The notes under the pieces are model-generated. The model saw nothing but the letters and a program-made list of their open reading frames with translations, was not told the DNA's origin and made no database searches. Shown piece after piece: positions 12,372 to 54,380 of a stretch of 64,000 bases of DNA; the first letter of the stretch is position 1, and every line of letters begins with the position of its first letter. The stretch is from contig WELB01000285.1 of assembly GCA_009602725.1 (NCBI GenBank), forward strand, positions 39,176 to 103,175. The letters run 5' to 3'. This DNA comes from Spirogloea muscicola (Eukaryota > Streptophyta > Zygnematophyceae > Spirogloeales > Spirogloeaceae). A program made the translations under genes and the position numbers.

Positions 12372-15133
12372 TTAACAATAGTCTCTCAACACTACACACT
12401 GGCAGCCGTCCACTGTCTCCAACCGGACCACATTGCTGTACATGTTAAACAAGCTGACTAATTCGCGAGCACCAAGCGACACCAGACTGGCGGGCCGGGA
12501 GTATCTCTGCAGGTAGAGGTCCTCAAAAGCATGCATGGGTAGGAGACCTCCGAAGCTCACAAGCAGCTCAATAAGGTCCCAAGCAAAGGCATCCGACTCA
12601 CGTCCGCTAGGCATGAGGCCTCTACTATCCGCCACATTGCCTCCCCCCTGTGCCTGTTCCAGCTGCTCCCGCTTGATCACGCTGCCGTCATCTTCAACGG
12701 AATCGCCTTCATCGACCAGCTTTGCCGCTGGCAGTTCAGAAGGAACGCTGGGGGTTTGTGAGTGCACAGGTGCACAGGTGGGAGGCATCTCACTCACGCC
12801 TTCCCTGCCGCTCTGTAGCTCCCCAAGCTTCAACGAAGCTGAGCTCTTTGCCTCCTCAACCTCGTAGCTCAAGCTGGCTGCCTCCTCCAATCCACTTCCA
12901 GCTTGTAGCAGCTTCTGCTCAGATGTTGCTGCCAAGGACGCCTTGGTTGCTGCAAACGCGTCCGGGTCCTCTACCTCGCTCTCCTCTGTCTCCTCTGGGT
13001 CCGAGGTCGTATCCTGCAGCGCCGTGTTGACGAGGACAACCTGGGACGGATCACTGATCCTGCCCAACTTCACGTCAACTTCTTCTGCGCTTTCGGGTGC
13101 TGCCACTTCTCTCTCCTCCTCAGTTCCGCTCGTCTGTGCCTCCACATCGGCTCTCTCCTCGACCACCCTCTGGTCGCCATCGTTTGCCGCCCCGTGCCTT
13201 TGCAACTTCAGCAACTGCTGTCTCGCGGCTGGGTTTCTGAGAACCAACAACTTCCGGACGCCAATCCCCTGCACGTCCAGCACGTCCCTCATCCGCTCCA
13301 GCAGGTACTTGAGCTTAGGGACGCCATACTCAGTGAGGTACAGAGGTCGCTGATAGTGCCGCCGATACTCGGTCGGCACCCGCACAAGTGCCAGCCGGCC
13401 GCCATGGAGCCGCAGGAGCTCGACCAACTGGCGCTTCAGGCCCTGCAGGTCCCCAGGCTGGACGAAGGTGCTGCCGACGCTGCGCTGTCTGTCAGTAGGG
13501 TCTCCCTCGAGCCCGATGCCACCAGCGGCAGGAGGAGTTGCTGCAGCGGCACCTCCAGCGCCAGTGGTGGTCAGGGGATGGTACTTGGGGTGCATCTCCC
13601 AGGCCTGACACAACCGCTGCACAGACTGCTGGCTGTACCTTACGCAAGATGCTGGGACAGCCTCGTGGCCAGCGCCCCTTCCATCATCGCAGACTGCACC
13701 TGGTGCTGACGTGCCCACTGATGTGCCAGTGCTTGCACTGCGTGCGATGTCCTGTGCGCCGGCAAGGCCTGTCAGGGGGGCTCCTGCGAGATAGGATGCC
13801 AGGCTCTTCGGGCTGACGTCTTGAAACGCTCCACCCTCTACGGCAGGAGGAGACCACCCGTGACCAGCTCTGTGGACCGAAGAATGGCCATCATTGGGTG
13901 GCTGGCGCCGTTCGCTTTGGCCTGACTCCAAGCTGTAGTCTGCCGCGACCAGATTGCTGCGTGCTGAGGCATAGACACACAACCTCTCTTGACCAACTTG
14001 GCCATTGAAGCAGACTGGATGGCCCCCTTCACTGCGCTGTGACAGGTGCGGCGGCGGCTGGTGTGGTGGCGGCGTGCCGTGAACTGGCCCATCTGTTGAG
14101 GCCGTTCTGACACGGTACGGAATTGCGCACTTGGCCGGGACTAAGCCGTCCCCCCTTGCCAGGCATGGCCAGTCCCACACGTAGCTGCCAGCTCTGCGAC
14201 CAGGAAGGATAACCACAACGCAGGCTTTGTGAGCTTGAGTAGTGTAGCAGCTGCCTACGAAGTGATACTTAGCTGCAGGTGCCTGTGGAAGATCGGCCGC
14301 ACTGCTTGACACTGCATCTGGTTACAAGGCCCTGAGGACGATTTGTACGCCATTCGAGATATGGGTTCCTTGCATGAGGCTGTGACGTCAACTGGAGGTG
14401 GTCATGCCTGACGAGCGCGGGCGAGACGCCAACGCCTGCAGGTACCGCCAGCAGCACCGCATAGCCCCGCTGCGCGAGCTTGTGCAGCGCGGGTGAGAAG
14501 TCGCCGTCGCCGGAGATGAGGAGGATGGTGGACGGCGGCGGGTTGTCGAGCGCAAAGAGGAACATGTCCACGAGGATGGCCTTGTCTACACTCGCGGCAA
14601 TGGAGGACGGTGTCACGACAGCAATTAAAGTGGCAAAGTGCTGCTGGCTGCCACAACGGAGGTCGTTAATTATCAGAGGTGACATCTATCAGACACTGGC
14701 GGTTCCAGCTGACCTGCGGCGTCCTTCTTGCCGTTGGGGACGTCGATGAGGCTGACGCCGGTGTGCTGGCAGCCCTCCCGGAGCTTCTTGGGGAACATGT
14801 TGAAGTCGCCGTAGGCGGCGAAGGACGTGACGGCGGCGGCGCGCACCGCGGGGTGGCCGCGCAGCGCGCCGCGGATGTTGCCGGCCACGTCCTCGGGCGG
14901 CACCTGCCCTGCCGTGCTCCACCGGCAGACCAGCCGCACCCATCAGCCACGAGCATGGCTTCCTCGCCACCAAAAGGACCTCTAACGGCGAGTCCGGACG
15001 AGTGGCGAGACGGTTCCCAGCGTTCGGGCTCACCAGGCACGCCGCAATTCTCGATGTCCCAGAGGATCGCCATGGGCCCGGCGGCGGCGGCGGCAAGCGG
15101 AGCAGCCGCCGCGGAGCCTCCGGCGAGAGCCAT
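12372..15133 (-). CDS. NYN-domain nuclease with LOTUS (OST-HTH) domains, MARF1-like
   Basis: Exon 1 (15034-15133) begins MALAGGSAAAA and contains the NYN start AILWDIENCGVP. Exon 2 (14714-14908) has EDVAGNIRGAL, SFAAYGDFN and DVPNGKKDA. Exon 3 (from 14585 to about 14370) has ILVDMFLFALDNP and LLISGDGDFSPALHKL. These are the conserved Asp-containing strands of the PIN-like NYN fold (WDIEN, DM, SGDGDF). Exon 4 (12372 to about 14200) opens with YVWDWPCLARG and then encodes a roughly 600-residue region with two LOTUS-like helical modules. One begins LKRQLVELLRLHGGRL; the other begins LIELLVSFGGLLPMHAFEDL, at the very C terminus. A Ser/Glu-rich acidic linker lies between them. NYN-LOTUS proteins are RNA-binding and likely RNases; the cellular role here is unknown. 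The exon 3/4 junction is the uncertain one. Confidence 0.85.
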
Positions 15134-15797
15134 CTTCGTCGCTGCTACGCCGGAGAGGGAGAGCGCCTCGCCGACGCCGACGATGGCCTGGCCGCGCCGC
15201 GGCGCCGCGAGCGGCNGAGAAGGCCAGCGGCCGAGCGCCCCGCCCCGCTCGCCGCCAATCGGGGAGGCACCGCCACATGTGGCGGCTGCTGGCCGCGCGG
15301 CGACCCGGGCCGCGCGCCACCGTGGCTGCCAAGTCGGCGGCCTTGTGTGCCCAGGAAGCGCGCCTAACGGACCCCGTTACAGCCCTGCTAAAAATTAAGT
15401 TAAATAGTCATGAACACCCTCTGTGTAAGCACCTGGCTGGCCTTTCCAGCCGCGGCAGCCGCATTCTTTTATCACGTGCCCTCCCGGCTGCATGCCAGCG
15501 GCCGCAGTTAAGGGCCTGCCGGCTGTTTCGCTCCCCTGCCGTGTACTTGGCCTCCCAAGCCCTCCATTAGTCATCAATACACGCTACGTTTGCCCCAAGG
15601 CGCCGCTGCCGCAGCCCCAGCCGGCGCGCCGCGACGGGGCAGCGCTCGCGGAGACGCGCCAGGATGCTGGCCCGCGCTCAGCTGGTGCACGAGCAGCCGT
15701 GCCGTCCCGTCCGTCTCGCGGCGATGCCAGCCGCCGTTGTCCCAGACGATAGCAGAGGCCGACGGCTGAGCTAAGCCCGCGAGCTCGCGGCGACGTC
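15134..15797. promoter_or_regulatory. Divergent promoter region between the NYN-LOTUS gene and DnaE
   Basis: About 660 bp of GC-rich sequence with one N at 15216 lies between two divergent start codons. Open frames here (for example one starting MWRLLAARRPG at 15277 plus) look like chance GC-rich ORFs or 5' UTR. Promoter function is inferred from arrangement only. Confidence 0.4.
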
Positions 15798-18700
15798 ATG
15801 GCCCTCGGCGGCCCGCCCGGCGCCTCCGTCGCAGCTGGCGCGGGGTGCCGCGCCATGTGGCGCGGAGGCCTTCACGCTCTCGGGGCGAGGGTCGCGGTTG
15901 TGCTCCACGTGACCGTCCGCAAGAGCGTCCCGCCGGCCAGCCGCTGCCTCGCCGGCGCCAGCGCTTTCCCGAGGCCTTACCTGCCTCGAGGATACGCCTT
16001 CGTATCTGCAGCGCTACCTGGCACTCCGGCTCTGCTCAGCAGGCCTCTTTCGTCAGCTGCCATACTATCAAGCAGCTCAAGGCCATACACGACTTTGACA
16101 ACGGCAGCAGCAAGTGAGGTTGCTGCAGAGGGCACCTCATCAGAGGTGGCAACATCGGTGGATTTTGTCCCTCTCCATGTGCACAGCGATTTCAGCCTGC
16201 TTGACGGTGCGAGCCAGGTGTGCTGCCTGAGTGTATTGCTCGGTCACTATCAGGACAACAGTGTGAAGTAAGAAGCGCCCGGCATGCAGATATAAGGACA
16301 ACCACTGAACACTGATATAGAAGATAGCTGCTGACCTTCTGCACTCCTTTTGTTAATTGTCAGCATCATCAGTCTGCTCTTTGTGAAGGTGATGGATAGT
16401 TCCTGGCTCCTGATTGACCTGCTAAGTGTGTTTGTTGCCTTAACATTCTGGCAGTTGCCTGCTCTAGTGGAGAGGGCCAAGGAGCTGGGGATGAAAGCTC
16501 TGGCCCTTACAGACCATGGAGGTGGGTCTGGAGTGTTCCTTACCCCTACTTGGTGGTGCAGGCCCCTCTGATGATGCAGTCAGCTGCACCAAGATACTGC
16601 TGTATCAGGCCACATTCTTGTATTATTGGGCAGGCTCTTGTCACTCTGCTGTTTATCACGTGTTCCTGGTACTTCGACTGTACATCATTCTTCGACTGTA
16701 CATCATTGCCATACTGCAGATTCATGATGGGCATGTCACCACTGTTGCCCATGTTCGCAGTTATGTATGGAGCAATAGAGCTTGTGAAGCTTTGCAAAGC
16801 AGCTGGCATTAAGCCTATAATTGGAAATGAGATGTACATAGCACATGGAAACAACGGGCCGCAGCAGGAAGAACGTAGAAGGTCAGAGAAAGTGTACTGG
16901 CTGCTGTGCATTCTCTACGGCCGTCATAAGAACCCCCCCCCCCCCCCCCCCNCCCCCCCCCCCCCCCCCCCAACACAGTGTTGCATGCAGATCCTAAAGA
17001 CGTTTTCTGGATCGGCAGAACTAACAAAATCCATGCATCTGCTTGTAGATACCATTTGACAGTTCTTGCAAAGGACGATAACGGGTACAAGAATCTTGTG
17101 AGGCTAACCAGTGAGTCCCACTTGCACGGCATGGAGGTAGGTGTCAGCTTTTCACCGCTTCATTAGAGTAAATGCTTGCTTTCGAGTTGTGAGACATGCA
17201 CAGATCATGGCACCTCATGTCGACCTTGTCCGTTGAAGTTTGAATGCTTGCATTCTCAAGGTCAAGTCTCACAACCAATCTTGTCAAGATTAAGGTCAGA
17301 TTGCACCAAGTGAAACTGTGGTCCTCATTTGAGTTTTCTTCTGCAGGGGCATGGCATTAGATCTCGGCCTTGCATCAGCAGGCAACTTCCGCTCCACTCA
17401 TGTAGCTACTATAGTTGGTCACAATGGGCACATTTAGCAGATACATTATCCTCCTAAGCAGGCTTTCAGATTGCTCTTGTTCTCAAATAGTGACGCGAAG
17501 AAAAGTGGTGGCCGTGCTTTTGCAGAAAAGTGTAGATACTCTGTCCACATACTGTCCACCCTGATGCCATGAACAATTTCCTTATAGCTTTATCTTGTCA
17601 AAGTCTAGTCTTTGATCACTATGTGCCGTGATTTTGACTAATGTGGATGATTGCAGAGAGCTACTTCAGAGTCACAGCGAGGGCCTTATTGTTTGTTCTG
17701 GTTGTCAGTCTGGAGAGGTGATTACTAGTCACTCCTTCCCTGCAGCATGTCTCATATGAGAGCAGTTATTGAATATTGCAGAGCCAAGTCACTTAATCTC
17801 GATCTGGAAAGTGATCTTGTCGTGATTCTCTGGAGCTCCATTCATGGAGCATTTGAAGCACTTACTGAAAGTTACACTTACTGAAAGTTGCACCTGCCAT
17901 GTACACGTAACATGCTGGTGATATCAGTTGGCTCAAGCGCTACTGGAGCAAGACATGGTTAGGGCTGAGGCGATTGCAAGCTGGTGCGTTTTAGCACATG
18001 TCCTTGCCAGTATCTTCCCCCACCTGAAGATTCTCTCTTCTGTACAATGGTGAAGCACTACTTAATGCAGAATGCTGCATTATATTGGTGACTGTAGGCA
18101 CAAGAAAGTGTTTGGGGAAGACTATTACTTAGAAATCATGGACCACAGCAGGGATGAGAATGAAATCATCAACAAAGGCATTCTCAAGTTGTCCCAACAA
18201 CTGGTACGTTGCGTTAAAGTCAAAGAGCACACTGAAACTTTGTTACTGCAAGATAGGTCAACAACAGGTTGAAGAAGTTGTTCAGCAATCTGCACAATCT
18301 CTCTGCTCATTATCTTTCCAGATTTATGCCAATAAATGACTACTCTTGTCTTTGTGGTCCTCACAGGATATAGATGTTGTTGCTACCAATGACTCTCACT
18401 TCACACATTGCAGTGATTTTGATTCTCACAAGGCCCTCATTTGCATAAAGGTGCATCTTCAGTGCTCGTCGGGCTTATGTAATGATGTGTTGCTAACCTC
18501 ATATTGAGCAGCTACTTTTGTGAAGCCCACCAGTTCTGATCTTTGTGAACAGCATGCTGAAGGAATGTTCCCTTTCAAGACTCATGATCTTCGTATGACC
18601 CTCCAACAAGCTGACCTTCTTGACAGATTGTGGTGTCCTCAATGGCAGACAGGCTCAAAATTGACTGAGAAGCCAAGATTATCGTACAGGTCTGTGACAC

Positions 18701-21700
18701 TATAAGCAGGTGCAATCAGCTTGTATGCATCAGTTTACGTTTGGAAAGTATGCTCATGCAATCTGAGATATGGGGATCATGTTTGTGGCAGTGGGCAAGA
18801 GTACCTGAAGTCAAGTGACGAGATGTTAGCATCATTCAGGACATTGCCTCAAGAAGTTGTTCAATCTGCAATTGCCAACACCGCCGTTATTGCCTCCAAG
18901 GTGTTTGACATGCACCTTGTGTTGCTTCAGAGGTCTTGTACTTGTAGAGCATTGCATGGTTGTATTAATAGGGATGTAAAATATTTGAATGCCTTTGAAG
19001 TGGTGTTTCTGAGAGGTGCACTTTGTGACACTGACATTACTACTTTGAGCATTATATTTAAATATGCCTCTGCAATGTCTTCAGGTGTCAGATTACAAAC
19101 TATTCAAAGCACCTCAACTGCCTAATTTTGATGTACCACCTGGCCATGACGAAAGCTCTTATCTAGAAGTAAGTTGAGTGGGATGGGTTCACAGCATCTA
19201 GCAGCACAACACTGGAGTAAAGTAGGAATTGGAGCATTGAAGCCAACATCTGATAGACAACAATCTGCATGAATGACAAGACTGGTAGCATAAAGCATCT
19301 GTGACCTTTATGGTGTTCTGTTACTTGGCCAGCTTGTTGCTCAGGAGGGGCTATGCAAGAAATTAGAGGTGGAATCTATGGTAGATGTACCTGCAGCGTA
19401 CTTGGACCGCTTGAGAACAGAGTTGGCAGTCATCGCTTCTCAAGGCTTCTCAGCGTATTTCCTTGTATAGTTGCCTACCACATCAACTTGGCTCTTGTTG
19501 TAGTGATGGCTGTCATGACGCAAGCCGCTCTCTCATTAGGGGCTCGTCTGTTCCTCTTTGGTGTCAAAGTTGCATTGTCGCTTATCACCTGACAATTCTG
19601 GTACTGTGACATAGTTGCTCAGCTTGCAGTCTTTCAGTCTCTTGCACAGTGCATCGACAAGAGACTGGAGGAGCTGCAGCTGAGAAGCAAGCCCCTTGCT
19701 CTCCCCAGGTGGTGTGGGACATAATAAAGTTTGCTCGTGACTGCAACATTCCGGTTGGACCTGGCAGGTGCAGTAATTGCATCCAATGTCATGTTGATAT
19801 TTGGGAGGTAAATGTTGAGCTTGCCAGATGTTGTGACTCTCAACTTGACGGGCCACTTCTCTTCAGGGGTTCAGCTGCTGGATCCTTGGTCGCCTATGCC
19901 TTATCCATCATCAACATCGACCCTGTGAAGCACGGTATGTCAGACCTTGGGGACTCGTTGACATACTACAAGGACCTTATGCTGTCAATCTCTGCGCAGA
20001 TGTCCTGCTGGCCTTTCTGCAGGTGTGGGCTCTTAATGCCTGTCTGATTACACACTGGACATTCTTTATGCTAGGGCTCCTTTTTGAACGTTTTCTGAAT
20101 GAGGAGAGGAGTTCATTGCCAGATATCGATACCGACTTCTGCCCAGAACAACGAGACAAGGTATCAATGAACTCGCTTAAGTGCCAGTATGACATAATAA
20201 TCAAACGGGCTGGGCGTGGAATATCATGGCAGACTATTTGTTCTTAGTAGGACTACTTATGATAGTCTTGAATTGGTCAAAGAGGCATGCATCGAAGCGG
20301 AAAGGGCATTGTGTTAGTAGCTCTGGGCCCTAATGCCATAAGGGCATGCTTTACGGAGCCCAGTGGCCTTGATACCAAGGTACTGCCAGATGGTCATGGT
20401 AATCAATGAGGATGATGGTGCAGGTTATTGAGTATGTGACCACAAAGTATGGAAGAGAGAGAGTCGCTCAAATTGCAACTTTCAATAGGCTCACTTCAAA
20501 AGCGGTGCTGAAGGATGTTGGCAGAGTGATGGGCCTGTCCTATGCTGAGACCAACTCAATTGCCAAGATGGTGAGCATCTATTCTTATAATATATTACAC
20601 ACATTTAAGAGATACTTTCGTGCCCTGAATATTGTTTGTAGAGGTGTGTGGTTGTAAGTGATGCTTTCATGGCGGAATCTAGTAGACTACGTCACATATG
20701 TCAGGGTATGTACTACCTAAGACCTCGGATCAGCAAGTGGCCATCTCTCACAATTTGCAAGAGGCACACGTCGTTGCTCCCTGGTGTTAGGTGCCAACTG
20801 TGAGGGGCAAGGCAACCAGATTAGAGGCTATGGTGTCGGACAATTCACCCTCCAAGGACTTTCTTCACAAATACAAAGACCCAGAGGTAGGCAAATGCTT
20901 TACATCTGATCAGAACGTTCTCATAGTTGCACTGGAGAAATAACATCCACCATTTGCCTGTGAGAAGGACACAAGCTGACAAACTTGAAATTGCTCACCT
21001 GCAGCAACTAGCAAATGCAACCACGACTGACATACCCCTCTATTCATGCAACACAGACCAAGAAATGGGTCGACATGGCCATATGCTTGGAAGGAACCCA
21101 CAAATCCTTTGGGGTCCATGCTGCCGGTGTCGTGATCTCAAATGCTGCGCGTCCGCTTAATGAGGTACTCAGTCATGCACACACTTGCTTTTATTGATAG
21201 ACAATCAAAGCGATGTCTTTGCAGCTGTAGGCCGCAATGACAAGCTTTAGGGTCACCATAGGTAGGTCACACTGTCCAAATTTACAATTGTAATATTCCG
21301 AGTTCACAAAAGACAGGTACAATTTTGGCGAATGCATGACTCGCAACTTCTTCGTTTATCAATGCAGGCAGTTCCGCTGCAGCGAGCTCTAGGCAACCAG
21401 GGGGCAGTTGTGACCCAATATGCTATGGATGACATTGAGTCCCTGGGCCTTCTGAAGATGGACCTGTTGGGTTTAAAGAACCTCACAGTAATCAGGAAGG
21501 CTTATGAGCTTGTTAAAGAGTCCTCTGGGGACGATTTGCCCCCTATGGAAAAGCTTCCCACTGATGATAAGAAGACCTTCGAGCTCCTTGCTTCAGGCAA
21601 TCTTGACGGTATCTTTCAGGTCTGTTGAATTGCTCTGCTATCCTGGAAGCATAAGTTTCTGAGTGCCACCCCCTCACGGTATTTGAGGCCCAGGGTATTG

Positions 21701-24700
21701 CCATACCTCATGCCCTCCTGGTCACAAGTACGTTTTGCGTCTGACCTATGATCACTTATCTGATACTATAGATTTATACCTGCTTCTCAATGGGCGCTGA
21801 TATTGCAGCTGGAGACATCTGGTGGCATGCGGCACGTTGTCAGAGACCTGAAGCCATCGCGCATCCAGGACATCTTTGCCATTCTGGCCCTTTACCGTCC
21901 TGGGTATGGCATCTCATTCACTCACTTCAGCAGCTGTTCTCTGATGAAGTGCTCCCTTTACAAAGCTGTAGCTTAGCTTGATAGTGGCCATGTCTGATGC
22001 CCTACAAACAGACCGTTGGATGCTGGTCTGGTGCAGGAGTACATTGATCGCAAGCACGGTGTGAAGCAGGCATGCCACGACCCTGACCTTTTGAGTATCA
22101 ACAAACTTTGTCTAGATCTATTAGCATAAGCTACCTGCCATCATTATGTGACATCTCCATGTTCTGCCCAACAAAGCATTGCATTGCTTTAGAGTTGTCT
22201 TTGTCAAGTGCCGCTAACTGTGGTGCTGATCCTTGTCCTGATAGGTTGAATATGCCACTCCAGAGCTTGAGCCCATCCTGAAGGAGACCTATGGCGTGCT
22301 CCTTTATCAAGAGCAGATTATGCGCATGGCCAGGGACTTGGCAGGCTACAGCCTTGGCCAGGCAGATCTACTGCGGCGAGCTATGGGTAAAAAGAAGCGA
22401 GAAGATATGGAGAGGGAGCGCAAGAGGTTTGTGGGGGGTGCCCTTGACAAGGGTGTCGAGGCCAAGGTTGCTGAGGAGCTTTTCGAAACTATGGTGAGCG
22501 CCTGAGCTAGAGCATCGCATATATGCTAGGTGTGCCTACATCGACCCTCGACACATGGTGGTGATGAATTGTCCATAGTGACACAATGGTGGCTGCTTTG
22601 CATACATATTGATCAGCAGGAGCGAGACAACTTGCTTGTCTTCCTTCCAGAGGAGCCATGTACTTGATTCTGCTGAATGATTCTTGGATTTTTTGGGTAA
22701 ACAGGTAAAATTTTCAGAGTACTGCTTCAACAAGAGCCACAGTGCTGCGTACGGGTACATCACTTACATGACAGCGTACTTGAAAGCAAACTATCCAGTT
22801 GCCTACATGGCTGCCCTCATGAGCTGTGCCGCCAGTGACACGGACAAGATAAGGCGCTACATTGCAGCGTGTCAAGCCATGGGGATTGAGCTCCTCCTTC
22901 CTTGCCTGAATGAATCAAGAGAGGACTTCACTATCGCACGAGTTGGACTAGCAGCTGGACATCTGGAGGGGCTTCACGATGACCGAGGAAGCTCTGCGAA
23001 TGGTGCATTGTCTGCTGCCTTTGAGATCACAGACGTAGGGCACGGAGCAGGGAAGGAGGACAACTCATTGTCAGCTGAAAATTTGAGCAAATATCCAACT
23101 GGGGCTATATGGCATGGCCTTACAGCAGTGAGGCACATTGGCGAGGGACCCGTGGTAGCACTCCTCAAAATTCGAGATGAAGGTGGCCCATTCAAGTCAG
23201 TGTTGGACTTGTGCGAGCGAGTGGATGTGAAGGTCGTGCCAAAGCGGGCTCTCAAAGCCCTCTCTGGCAGCGGCGCACTGGACTGCTTGGGCGCTGATTA
23301 CCCCGACGATGACGAGGAGGGAGATGGAGGAAGGAGGGGGGTGAATCGGGCCTGGATGTGGAAAGTACTTGAGGAAGAACTTGACCGACGCTCAAAGGAG
23401 GCAATGAAGGAACGACGGCGAGCGGCAAAGGAAGAGAAGAAGCAGAAGCAGGACATGGACAGCCTGCCAAGTGGAACAGCAGCAAGCAGCAACGATAGCT
23501 TGTCCAGTGCATGCGCCAGGCAAGACGACGGAGGCGATGAGAAGGTGGATGGTGCAGTGATGCTCGAGGGAGAAGCTTCACAAACGGCCGAGATCGCCAT
23601 GAGCCTGTCAGCGGTGAAGGCCAATACAGGGGAAGATGGTGGGGGCTTCGCTTTGAAGAAGGGCGCAAACAGAAAAGGGAGGCCTCGGAAAGCAAGTGTC
23701 ATTGCAGATGCGGAGGCAAGCACCGCGGAAGCAGTGGAAAGCTTGGAGGAGGAGGAGGAGGAGGAGAGGAGGCAGGCAGCGCGGGTGCAGCAGAGCCGCG
23801 AGGAGCGGTGCAAGGAGCAGAAGGACCTGCTGGGGTACTGGCCAGATCACCCAATCGGCCCTCTGCTGGAGCGCCTGCCCGAGTGGTCGGTGCCTCTGAG
23901 GCTTTGCGATGCGGGTGAGCCGGAGAACGAAGGGAAGCTTGTGACTACGGCGGTGCTTGTCGGGGACACCACCGAGAAGGTGACCAAGGCTGGGCGCCAC
24001 TATGCCACAGTGCAGCTGGATGACTGCACGGGACAGCTGGAGGGCGTCGTATTTGACCCCGCATACACCAGCGTCAAGGAGCTCTTCAGGGAGGACGCGC
24101 TGCTGCTGGTGTATGGCGAGCTGGAGCGGCGGGGGGACCGCAAGAGTGCCGGGAGGAACGAGGAGGCCGGTAGTGCCGAGCTGGGGCTTGGCTTGGCTTT
24201 GGCAGCTGCGAGCCCGGCCGACATGCAGATCAAGGTGCGCGGCGCGGTGGAGATTGACAAGGCGCGCATCGTGTGCGTGCAGCTGACGCCCACCGAGGCC
24301 ACTGATACGAGCAAGCAGAACATCCTGGAGCGGGTTTTGGCTGGGAGGGCCTTGCAGCAGCGAGGCAGGCGGCGGAAGAACCAGGTCATCAATACCGTCC
24401 CTGTTGTCATCACGATCATCCCTGAGGGTGAGGGCGACAATGCCTTGGGGCTGGCAGATACGACAGCCTTCCACTCGGAAATCCGGGAGGGTGATGGTGC
24501 TACCACCGCACAGCAGCTCGGGGACGAGGGCGAGAGGGCACTCGACCTAACCAGGTTAGGGGAGGCCGGCTGTTTGGAGTACGTCTATTTCGGCCCCACC
24601 TCAAACACAGTAAGCAAATCCACAACCGCAGTAGCAATAATGGTTACCTGGCTATATGACAGAAATTTTCCATGGCTCTGTATTTTCATGCTCCACATTT

Positions 24701-24989
24701 GCATTGTTGTCTGCAGTCTGCATGTCGATTTTGCTGACAATGGACGCAGCCTGTTTTCTATCCCCAGGACGATGCAGACGCCACGGCACGCAAACTCAGA
24801 GCTGCAGGTTTCCAGGTTGACGTCAGGCCCTTGCTCTTGGACAAGCAGCTCGCATCAGCCACACGTGCCCATAAGCTGCAGAAGCCACCCATCCACAGCA
24901 ACTGCAAGAGCCAGTCACTTGCAGCTGACGCTGCTCCAGGCACCCCACACATTGCAGGCCAGACTCTCTCAGACTCTTTGGTAGTCTAG
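15798..24989 (+). CDS. dnaE: DNA polymerase III alpha subunit (DnaE), bacterial/cyanobacterial type, nuclear gene with 24 introns
   Basis: This is a family C replicative polymerase. Exons: 15798-16217, 16455-16521, 16761-16881, 17049-17136, 17347-17381, 17657-17717, 17928-17983, 18098-18203, 18367-18450, 18649-18689, 18792-18900, 19085-19168, 19333-19464, 19709-19767, 19867-19934, 20075-20160, 20424-20570, 20791-20886, 21057-21164, 21368-21619, 21809-21903, 22012-22069, 22245-22493, 22705-24609 and 24768-24989. All junctions agree in phase; the total is 4749 nt, about 1582 residues. The first ~115 residues are Ala/Arg/Ser-rich and look like an organelle presequence. The PHP domain starts [18 protein letters not shown] and includes ALTDHG and ATNDSHF. 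The polymerase core has [36 protein letters not shown] and [12 protein letters not shown], with the three expected acidic positions, plus the fingers segment [13 protein letters not shown]. An OB fold ([14 protein letters not shown] to VYGELERRG) lies near the C terminus. Wording of most blocks is closest, from memory, to cyanobacterial DnaE. Confidence 0.95.
16672..16707 (+). repeat. 18-bp direct tandem duplication in DnaE intron 2
   Basis: Two perfect adjacent copies of CTTCGACTGTACATCATT, at 16672-16689 and 16690-16707, inside the second intron of the DnaE gene. Confidence 0.9.
16933..16971 (+). repeat. Poly-C run with an embedded N in DnaE intron 3
   Basis: A homopolymer of C about 39 bases long, interrupted by one N at 16952. 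It lies between DnaE exons 3 and 4. Its true length is uncertain, but it does not touch coding sequence. Confidence 0.9.
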
Positions 24990-36056: not shown

Positions 36057-39000
36057 AGGCGCATCTTCCTCATGGTCTGCTCCGCCGTGCTGATGCTGTC
36101 GGCGCTGTCGGTGTTCTACGGGACCGTCTTCTCCGGCAAGCTCCGCGCCAAGCCCCCGCCGCCGGAGACGCGCGGCGCCTGGGAGGTTGCCGCCGGAGGC
36201 GCTGCCGGTGAGCACCGCGCAGCGTCAGCGGCGCCTGCAGCGCGCTTCTCCAGCCCTGTCATGTCCACGACTGCCGGCGGGCCTGGCCGGCCGCTACGTG
36301 GGCGAAAAATGGCGGCGGCACTGAGGTCGCGAGACCTCGCAGCTGCAGTAGGAGCCGAGCGCCATTGCTGTGGCGGCAGTCGCCACTGCCGTGGCGGCGG
36401 TTGGCTGCGGGCTGACCAAGTCCACATGGGCACACGCAGGCGGCGGCCGCAGCGGCTCGGCAGCGCGGCAGCTCGAGGCCTCCCCGCTCCTCTCCTTCCT
36501 CAAGTCTGCGCACCGCCAGGAGCAGGCCTCCTTCCTTCGAGGTGCCTGCCGCTCTCCACCTTTCCTCCTCCATTCTCCACCTTCCCTCCTCCACCGCAAG
36601 AGAGGCAGGGCCTGACTCGGCTCGTGGCTTTGGCCGTCTCCGCCAGACGCCGAAGACGGCGGCCAGGAGATTCCTTCAGCGGCAGCGGCGGACCAGGACG
36701 GGGGCTCCAGCGACGACGCCGCCGACGGCGACGGCGGCGGCGAAGGGGAGGCTGGCGGCGTCGACGCCGACCCCGAGTCCGCGCTGCGCGAGGAGGATGC
36801 CGCCAAGGACGGCGCTCTGGAGGAGGGCAATGAGGAGGGCGGCGGCAACGATGGCAGCAGCACGCCGCCTCCCGCTGCGCTTGAGGATGTCGGCGAGAGC
36901 CCCAACAGAGAGGGCAGGAGTGCTGCTGCGGATGTGGCAGGAGAAGCTGCCTCGCCGCGGCAGGAGGACCGCGACGGAGCTGAGGCGGTTGAAGCTGAGA
37001 GCCAGCAGGACGACAGCGTCGGCGCCTCGGGTGCCATTCCCGCTGCAGTGGCTGACGCCAATGCCGAGGCAGACGCCGATCCTGCAGCTGAGGTGGAGCG
37101 CAAGCCAGCGCCTGTGGCCCATGCCCGGCATCTTGGCAGAGATGCTGCCGCTGCCACTTCCGGAGGGGAGGGCAGGCGGCCTGCGCTGGCCAAGAGGAGG
37201 AAGCGCAGCTGGAGGAGGAGGAGCTCGAGCCTCCCGCTGGCGAAAGCGTTTCCGGTATGCTGCTCTCCCCCTCTTCTCCTCCCTCCTCTTGAGCTCCTTC
37301 CAGTTGTAACAGGAAGGAATGGAGGCGGCATGGGTTTGTTGACGATGTCCTTCCCTCCTTGCCCCCCCTCTCTCTCTTCCGCCCGGGAACGCAAGGTGTG
37401 CGAGTCGCAGTACGAGGAGATCACGCCGTGCAACGACCGCAGCCTGCAGCAGGAGCTGAAGCTCAAGATCAACGTGCGCCTGGGCGAGCACTACGAGCGC
37501 CACTGCCCGCCGCCCGATCGACGCCTCAAGTGCCTCATCCCGCCGCCCAAGAACTACAAGGTCTGGCCACTGCACCGCCACCGCTGCTGGCCCCACAGTC
37601 TTGCCCTGCAGCCTCGCTGGCCTGTCACGGCATTCACCGCTCGTCCTTTCTCCTCACCGTCCTCGTTCGTGACTCGCAAAGAGTGAAGCTCAGCAGCCTG
37701 ACAGTGCCCCTCCGTCCTCCTCCCTCCTCCTTGCAGCTGCCGATCCGTTGGCCCGCGAGTCGCGATCACGTGTGGAAGGCGAACGTGCCGCACGTGCACC
37801 TGGCGTTCGAGAAGTCGGACCAGCGGTGGATGGTCGTCGAGGGCGACCGCATCTCCTTCCCTGGGGGCGGCACCCACTTCCACGACGGCGCCGACAAGTA
37901 CATCTCGCATCTTGGCCGGGTGAGCGAGCACCCCTCCTGCCTCGTGCAGCGGCCGCTGCCGCTGCCTGCTGGTACTTTCCACTTTGTCACCCCCCCTCCT
38001 CGACCACAAAGAGAAGCAGGCCGTTCGTGTACATCTCTATCTCCTTCTCTCTCCTCCCTCTTACTTCCAAGTAAACTCTAAATCTCTGAGCTGACGGCAA
38101 CACGGCTCGCTCTCTCCATCCTCCCCCCTCCTTAATCTGGTACCGGGGGTTGCGCAGTTGCTGGGCGACCGCAAGGGCAGCCTGGCGCTGGGCGGGCGCC
38201 TGCGCCAGGTGCTGGACATCGGGTGTGGCGTCGCATCGTTCGGCGCCTTCCTGCTGCCGCACGACATCCTCGCCATGTCGCTGGCGCCCAATGACGGGCA
38301 CGAGAACCAGATTCAATTTGCGCTCGAGCGCGGCATACCTGCCACGCTGGGCGTGCTCGGCACGCGCCGCCTGCTCTACCCGTCCCGCTCCTTCGAGCTC
38401 GCGCACTGCTCGCGCTGTCGCATCGACTGGGCGCAGCGAGGTCAGCCACTTCCTCGACCGGTTCCCCTCCTAACAGCCCCTGGCCTTCCTCCTCTCCACC
38501 TTCCACCATGGGCTTGTCCTTGAGGACATAAGCTCCTGCTTTGCCAGCTATGCCTGTTCAAGAGAGAGGCTGCAAGCTCACATGTGTTGGTGCCGCTGCC
38601 GCTGCCGCTACCATCTCCATGGTCGCCACCACCGCCGCTCTCAGACGGGATCCTGCTGCTGGAGGTCGACCGAGTGCTGCGGCCTGGCGGCTACTTTGCA
38701 TGGTCGGCGCCGCCGGCGTACAGCGACGACGAGGCCGAGAAGGCCATATGGGCGGAGGTCAGCGACCTTGCAAGGTGCGCCGACGCTCCACAACCCCCAC
38801 TCGTTCTGCTGCTCATGTCACTTCCTCTTGGCCCCCCCTCCTCACCCCCCTCCTCCTACCTGCCTCCTCCCTTACCTCCCCCCAATCAAGTCCTCCCTCC
38901 CTCCTTCTGTACTGTGCCGCAGCTTATACACCCAAGCTAATCCCTATCTTCTCACCTTCCTTTCATCCTCCTCCACTCGTCTTTCTTGCTTTCCATCGGC

Positions 39001-50764: not shown

Positions 50765-54380
<3,616 letters not shown>

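Follow-up and report, generated by a model that had tools for sequence, protein, structure and literature searches.

A nuclear, intron-rich dnaE gene of cyanobacterial type without the canonical clamp-binding motif in the alga Spirogloea muscicola

The window analyzed in this work, a stretch of 64,000 nt of contig WELB01000285.1 (assembly GCA_009602725.1) from the zygnematophycean alga Spirogloea muscicola, carries a gene for DnaE, the family C DNA polymerase of bacteria. The dnaE gene occupies positions 15798-24989 of the plus strand and consists of 25 exons, which add up to 4767 nt and encode 1588 residues; the three homeologous loci of the genome agree on this structure. The exon model was built by protein-to-genome spliced alignment with E. 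coli DnaE as the guide, which placed consecutive exons in the window from 16164 onward, and was refined against the two homeologous loci. The original prediction, made from the sequence of the window, had a 25-exon gene at the same positions with agreeing splice phases. Both the spliced alignment and the three genomic copies confirm the gene and the exon count; the predicted length (4749 nt, 1582 residues) was 18 nt short owing to small differences in exon boundaries. The prediction did not include the three copies, the absence of the clamp-binding motif, the negative clamp searches, the two GC-AG introns or the uneven spread of introns described below.

All exons lie on the plus strand and are those of the three-copy model. 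Exon 1 (15798-16217) encodes a presequence-like extension and the start of the PHP domain. It is followed by exons 2 (16455-16521), 3 (16761-16881), 4 (17049-17136), 5 (17347-17381), 6 (17657-17717), 7 (17928-17983), 8 (18098-18203), 9 (18367-18450), 10 (18649-18689), 11 (18792-18918), 12 (19085-19168), 13 (19333-19464), 14 (19709-19767) and 15 (19867-19934). Residue alignment places the catalytic Asp533 (20122-20124) and Asp535 (20128-20130) in exon 16 (20075-20160) and the third catalytic residue, Asp694 (21461-21463), in exon 20 (21368-21619), with exons 17 (20424-20570), 18 (20791-20886) and 19 (21057-21164) between them. Exons 21 (21809-21903), 22 (22012-22069) and 23 (22245-22493) complete the intron-dense part, which ends after residue 880. 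Exon 24 (22705-24609) is an intron-free block of 1905 nt encoding residues 881-1515, and exon 25 (24768-24989) contains the stop codon. The 24 introns are 99-275 nt long and all joins are in phase (16 in phase 0, two in phase 1 and six in phase 2). Twenty-two introns are GT-AG in the chosen model and two are GC-AG: intron 5 (17382-17656, donor GCAACT) and intron 22 (22070-22244, donor GCATGC), both kept in the three homeologs. The two GC donors were preferred because with them the protein again aligns to bacterial DnaE without gaps, and because all three copies conserve them.

The 153 Mb genome contains three diverged copies of dnaE, on contigs C285 (the window), C33 and C17. Relative to the window, the copies on C33 and C17 show about 85-89% DNA identity across exons, introns and near flanks. 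The copies sit on contigs of 141, 936 and 1215 kb and are collinear across the roughly 11 kb compared. All three hold an uninterrupted reading frame between ATG and stop (1588, 1587 and 1579 residues in C285, C33 and C17, respectively), their exons differ in length always by multiples of three, and the splice dinucleotides are kept at all 24 introns in every copy; a gene model with these properties is far beyond chance. The pairwise ratio of non-synonymous to synonymous substitution rates (dN/dS) between copies is 0.19-0.20 overall, 0.10-0.13 for residues 120-1075, 0.40-0.48 in the linker described below and 0.25-0.46 in the N-terminal extension; intron divergence of the copy pairs (0.14-0.18) lies slightly under their overall dS (0.17-0.21). 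The dnaE copies are thus under purifying selection and, together with the conserved introns, this bears out the earlier proposal of a nuclear, spliced gene. Other triplets occur in the genome, namely one of a family A polymerase and two DnaX-like sets. A recent whole genome triplication in S. muscicola is cited in PMC9065682, and three copies of a gene region in this alga are mentioned in PMC11096116. The three dnaE copies would fit this triplication.

Pfam finds PHP, DNA_pol3_alpha, DNA_pol3_finger, HHH_6 and OB in this order in the spliced protein, i.e. all the regions listed in the original prediction plus HHH_6. The PHP region (residues 122-402, spliced from 16161-18918; Pfam match to residues 126-299) keeps nine of nine metal ligands (H127, H129, D136, H161, E186, H205, C260, D327 and H329) at what we take to be the ligand positions; five of the nine differ in E. 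coli DnaE. The polymerase core and fingers (residues 428-866, spliced from 19160-22451) match PF07733 with 302.9 bits and PF17657 with 203.6 bits. Asp533, Asp535 and Asp694 correspond in the alignment to D401, D403 and D555 of the E. coli enzyme, which we take to be the catalytic aspartates of the palm. According to the alignment and Pfam, a helix-hairpin-helix (HhH) region with an algal insertion follows (residues 940-1077, 22882-23295), and the OB region spans residues 1247-1359 (23803-24141; Pfam match to residues 1308-1359). The C-terminal domain (residues 1360-1545, spliced from 24142-24857) is alignable to the cyanobacterial C terminus. Since the aspartates and the PHP ligands are intact, polymerase activity and built-in proofreading are predicted. 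By domains and catalytic residues the product is a full-length DnaE of replicative type.

The top NCBIfam model is NF005617 (1382.5 bits, short of its equivalog cut-off of 1653); NF005617/PRK07374 appears to be the model of cyanobacterial unsplit DnaE. Matches to TIGR00594 and NF004226 exceed their cut-offs. The scores for the error-prone DnaE2/ImuC model (NF004225, 605.8 bits against a cut-off of 939) and for PolC (NF001688, 173.1 bits against 873) place the protein outside both classes. The algal DnaE resembles the cyanobacterial unsplit DnaE in domain order (PHP, polymerase, fingers, HhH, OB, C-terminal domain), in core identity of up to 61% and in a shared YCFNKSH signature. It differs in being nuclear, in its 24 introns, in an N-terminal extension of 119 residues, in long insertions and in the absence of the clamp motif. 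It is also alignable over the core with DnaE1 of Mycobacterium tuberculosis (E 5e-190; PDB 5lew and 7pu7, which we take to be structures of that protein), an enzyme that proofreads by its PHP domain; DnaE1 is a member of a bacterial holoenzyme and is not the closest sequence to the algal DnaE.

The N-terminal extension (15798-16154, plus strand) was delimited by the bacterial rows, which align from just before the FVPLH block; whatever precedes this block in them is the overhang of stop-to-stop frames. Its 119 residues include 25 Ala, 15 Ser and 9 Arg. Neither Asp nor Glu occurs before position 107, where the first acidic residue stands in all three copies; at the acid content of the core the probability of such an acid-free stretch of 106 residues is about 2e-7. 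The extension looks like an organelle presequence and would suit plastid or mitochondrion alike. The presequence-like N terminus originally proposed therefore stands as a likeness in composition, and the import and copying of organelle DNA proposed with it are kept here in conditional form.

The relationship of the algal protein to bacterial DnaE was analyzed with a reference set of at least 80 DnaE loci from a scan of GTDB genomes. Among these loci, identity to the algal DnaE is 51-55% for the ten named cyanobacterial loci and 38-46% for the other 70. An 82-row tree was built from 78 of the 80 loci (the short L064 and L074 being left out), E. coli and the algal trio; in it the three algal copies join the ten named cyanobacteria with a support of 100 in the approximate likelihood ratio test (SH-aLRT). 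All 146 genomes of the cyanobacterial phylum matched at E ≤0.001, two of them weakly, with a top identity of 60-61%. The best 30 loci were fetched and comprise 13 unsplit genes and 17 N-terminal halves with intein-like tails. Mixture-model trees were then calculated for 49, 50 and 54 rows, the latter two omitting 10 of 45 unnamed loci and the last including four viral rows; the alga joins the photosynthetic cyanobacteria with supports of 100/99, 100/100 and 100/100, respectively. Its exact position, sister to all photosynthetic rows, is weakly supported (bootstrap 92-94, SH-aLRT 62-82), and its branch is long. The alga branches outside L025 and a Melainabacteria row, and in the 50- and 54-row trees also outside L134-136 and L137-143. 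Among the unnamed rows Gloeobacter and Gloeomargarita were not identified. The C-terminal part alone, in the rows holding it, places the alga with unsplit photosynthetic cyanobacteria at 100/99.

The approximately unbiased (AU) test rejects (p-AU 0.001) a position of the alga outside the group formed by the photosynthetic cyanobacteria and the rows sister to them, L025 and L134-136. It tolerates a grouping of the alga with the rows of Synechococcus/Prochlorococcus (p 0.14), with a 7-row split-intein clade (p 0.10), with a 24-row clade (p 0.28) or with the L025 group (p 0.10). The conserved blocks of cyanobacterial type noticed at the outset are borne out by the trees, the AU test, the identities and the NCBIfam models, and the phylogeny leads to no contaminant lineage outside the cyanobacteria. 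We regard a cyanobacterial origin of the algal sequence as firm. Of the earlier alternative, inheritance from the plastid ancestor or gain from a cyanobacterium, the cyanobacterial part has thus held; with several placements tolerated by the AU tests, inheritance from the plastid ancestor is plausible rather than demonstrated. A viral route was considered and rejected: DnaE relatives are encoded by 67 viral contigs, of which four were placed in the tree, and the best viral relative (L165, 50% identity) nests within the cyanobacteria, apart from the alga. L165 itself is a 103 kb IMG/VR contig with an unsplit DnaE frame of 1174 residues, which forms a long branch inside the cyanobacteria and shows 62% identity to one row over the tree columns.

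Bacterial DnaE binds the beta clamp through a QxxLF-type motif located between HhH and OB. This motif is absent between HhH and OB in all three algal copies and present in all 13 bacterial rows aligned. At its site, according to the alignment and the motif scan, the alga has a low-complexity linker of about 170 residues (residues 1078-1246, 23296-23802, plus strand). Given the absence of the motif, the assignment stops at a DnaE homologue and does not imply membership in a holoenzyme. The search of the genome for clamp and tau subunits proposed earlier was carried out. Neither PF02767 nor TIGR00663 nor a cyanobacterial DnaN query turned up a beta clamp, in a search made exon by exon and thus of limited sensitivity. 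The tau domain III (PF12169) was not found either, in a search that missed the control cyanobacterium as well. Two matches to DnaB_C lie under the cut-off and are weak.

The dnaE gene stands head to head with frames on the minus strand (12375-15376) that match the NYN and OST-HTH/LOTUS profiles and are given as context only. About 420 bp separate the end of these frames at 15376 from the dnaE ATG; the neighbour stretch is alignable in all three copies, with conservation below that of the dnaE exons. Farther downstream there are a match to Methyltransf_29, a putative family of SAM-dependent methyltransferases (36616-37683, plus strand, 40.3 bits), and a small nucleolar RNA, snoZ43 (53346-53449, minus strand, 71 bits); a sodium/proton exchanger match within the window falls under its cut-off. 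Methyltransf_29 and snoZ43 are presumably plant-typical and make the green-lineage host supposed in the original prediction likely. The genomic context is eukaryotic and appears partly of plant type.

Published accounts assign DNA synthesis in plastids to another enzyme. According to PMC3914683 and PMC6523293, POP, a family A polymerase, replaced Pol III in plastids. A replication helicase and a primase of cyanobacterial origin have been kept for the plastid in the red lineage (PMC4166229 and PMC3914683), and the passages of PMC4166229 considered here mention polymerase III once, for bacteria. The algal DnaE is like POP in its proposed place of work, i.e. organelle DNA synthesis by a nucleus-encoded polymerase, and unlike it in belonging to family C; with the helicase and primase of the red lineage it shares the cyanobacterial derivation, although those are no polymerases. 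Among the top-ranked matches of the literature searched, which scarcely covered subscription papers and preprints, no account was found of a nuclear, spliced eukaryotic dnaE that lacks the clamp motif and belongs to a green alga. The enzyme family is already known, and orthologues may be present, so far unnoticed, in algal genomes annotated elsewhere.

We propose, with a probability of roughly 0.52, that this is a functional nuclear DnaE gene derived from the plastid ancestor or another photosynthetic cyanobacterium, the product of which would be imported into an organelle, proofread its own synthesis and act without the bacterial clamp. The gene would have been naturalized by the gain of introns and of the presequence-like extension, and would have been multiplied when the genome was triplicated. 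Its product probably enters an organelle, the plastid being the likeliest, where its family C active site would extend primers and its own PHP nuclease would proofread. Action without the bacterial sliding clamp is probable because the canonical beta-clamp-binding motif is absent and no beta clamp was found. An enzyme of this kind would be suited to work on organelle DNA over short tracts, in gap filling, in synthesis that depends on recombination or in repair, or else its processivity would come from another partner. The gene structure, the selection, the intact catalytic and PHP residues, the cyanobacterial affinity and the missing motif are observed; import, choice of organelle, clamp-free action and the process served are suggested by them.

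Several points weigh against this proposal. A cruder motif scan was positive in 77 of the 94 bacterial rows of at least 1100 residues and thus missed the motif in 17. All three copies carry a relaxed clamp-like string, QKDLL, which in the protein encoded by the window is at residue 1252. The clamp searches went exon by exon through an intron-rich genome, in which a poorly conserved protein could escape, and the empty result of the DnaN query proves nothing; DnaX-like exons, weak matches forming two triplet sets, are present. Divergence of the C-terminal part was considered as an indication that the enzyme had left the holoenzyme; this reading was dropped, at a slight cost to our confidence. 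In PHP, the core, OB and the C-terminal domain the alga is 56, 60, 30 and 28% identical to cyanobacteria, respectively (71, 71, 53 and 37% among cyanobacteria), and the bacterial row L025 is as low or lower in the last two at a similar core identity (core 59%, OB 28%, C-terminal domain 21%). Such divergence being ordinary for that distance, the clamp-free part of the proposal is carried by the missing motif and the negative clamp searches. Composition was the basis for judging the presequence, the proposal as a whole is drawn from genomic sequence, and the results favour neither plastid over mitochondrion nor inheritance over later transfer.

The strongest competing account, possible though short of even odds, is a horizontal transfer to an ancestor of the alga later than the establishment of the plastid, with a cyanobacterium, either free-living or symbiotic, as the donor and recruitment of the enzyme to an organelle. 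The placements with Synechococcus/Prochlorococcus, the 7-row split-intein clade and the 24-row clade tolerated by the AU tests favour it, as does the acquisition of genes from soil bacteria by these algae, cited in PMC7902510. In the free trees, however, the alga branches off the stem of the photosynthetic cyanobacteria sampled and falls inside no group, if with weak support for the exact place, and its long branch, the 24 introns and the presence of the gene before the three copies diverged do not favour a late arrival. Service to nuclear or mitochondrial instead of plastid DNA, for example with PCNA as the clamp, is unlikely. A PIP-box-like string, QKDLLGYW (residues 1252-1259, 23818-23841), occurs in all three copies, and an N terminus rich in Arg and Ala and free of acidic residues would also suit mitochondria. 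But this string lies within a conserved bacterial block (EKELLGFY) and is probably due to chance, about 0.2 such strings being expected per protein of that length by our estimate, and the acid-free extension argues for an organelle. Bacterial contamination or a recent unexpressed insertion could be imagined for a family of polymerases otherwise known from bacteria and their phages; it is wholly improbable, contamination being refuted by the introns and the three collinear copies on large contigs (141 kb, 936 kb and 1.2 Mb), and the eukaryotic neighbours and purifying selection speak against it as well.

The uneven distribution of introns raises the question of whether the donor DnaE was split by a split intein and its two halves, transferred separately, were joined into one gene. 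Twenty-three of the 24 introns lie before residue 881 and one after it, and an intron-free stretch of 635 residues after residue 880 has a chance of 1e-4 under uniform placement. The drop in intron density (22494-22704 / 22705-24609) falls six residues before Y886/C887, the break site in 17 of the 30 cyanobacterial loci fetched. Nevertheless, this history is very improbable: the GC content at third codon positions, 0.62 before and 0.58 after the boundary, shows no step there, each part by itself groups with cyanobacteria, 13 of the 30 fetched loci are unsplit with the same Cys, and intron loss mediated by cDNA (reverse transcription) is a simpler account of the intron-poor 3' half. By alignment, Cys887 in YCFNKSH (22723-22725, plus strand) is the residue after the break in split cyanobacterial DnaE. 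The idea that it is the scar of a lost split intein was rejected, as this Cys is found in all 13 unsplit unnamed cyanobacterial loci. It is also present in eight of the ten named cyanobacterial rows, i.e. in all in which the motif is readable, and is hence a cyanobacterial signature. In the 70 other rows the position holds G in 35, A in 16 and C in 4 and is unreadable in 15. Outside the cyanobacteria, Cys before FNKSH was seen in L049, L053 and L088, which are Saccharibacteria rows and one unnamed bacterium grouping with them.

A bolder version of our proposal holds that a clamp-free, PHP-proofreading DnaE has been kept since the plastid ancestor as the main copier of plastid DNA, POP being lost or restricted to mitochondria. 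We consider it improbable. A single family A polymerase triplet was found in the genome (C326, C203 and C25), for which POP and Pol theta are both candidates; the exonuclease-domain matches are on contigs other than those of the triplet, and a presumed POP motif A pattern has no exact match in the genome. These three observations keep the version compatible with the data.

Plastids are held to have given up the cyanobacterial replicase in favour of POP, and an intron-rich nuclear dnaE under selection in the probable sister lineage of land plants would break this rule. It would also open a route to ask how a bacterial replicase is domesticated, with catalysis and proofreading kept and clamp contact shed. 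Should other algae prove to have orthologues, the time at which Pol III was lost in the green line would become readable; if there are none, the gene would be a transferred informational gene, of a class thought hard to transfer.

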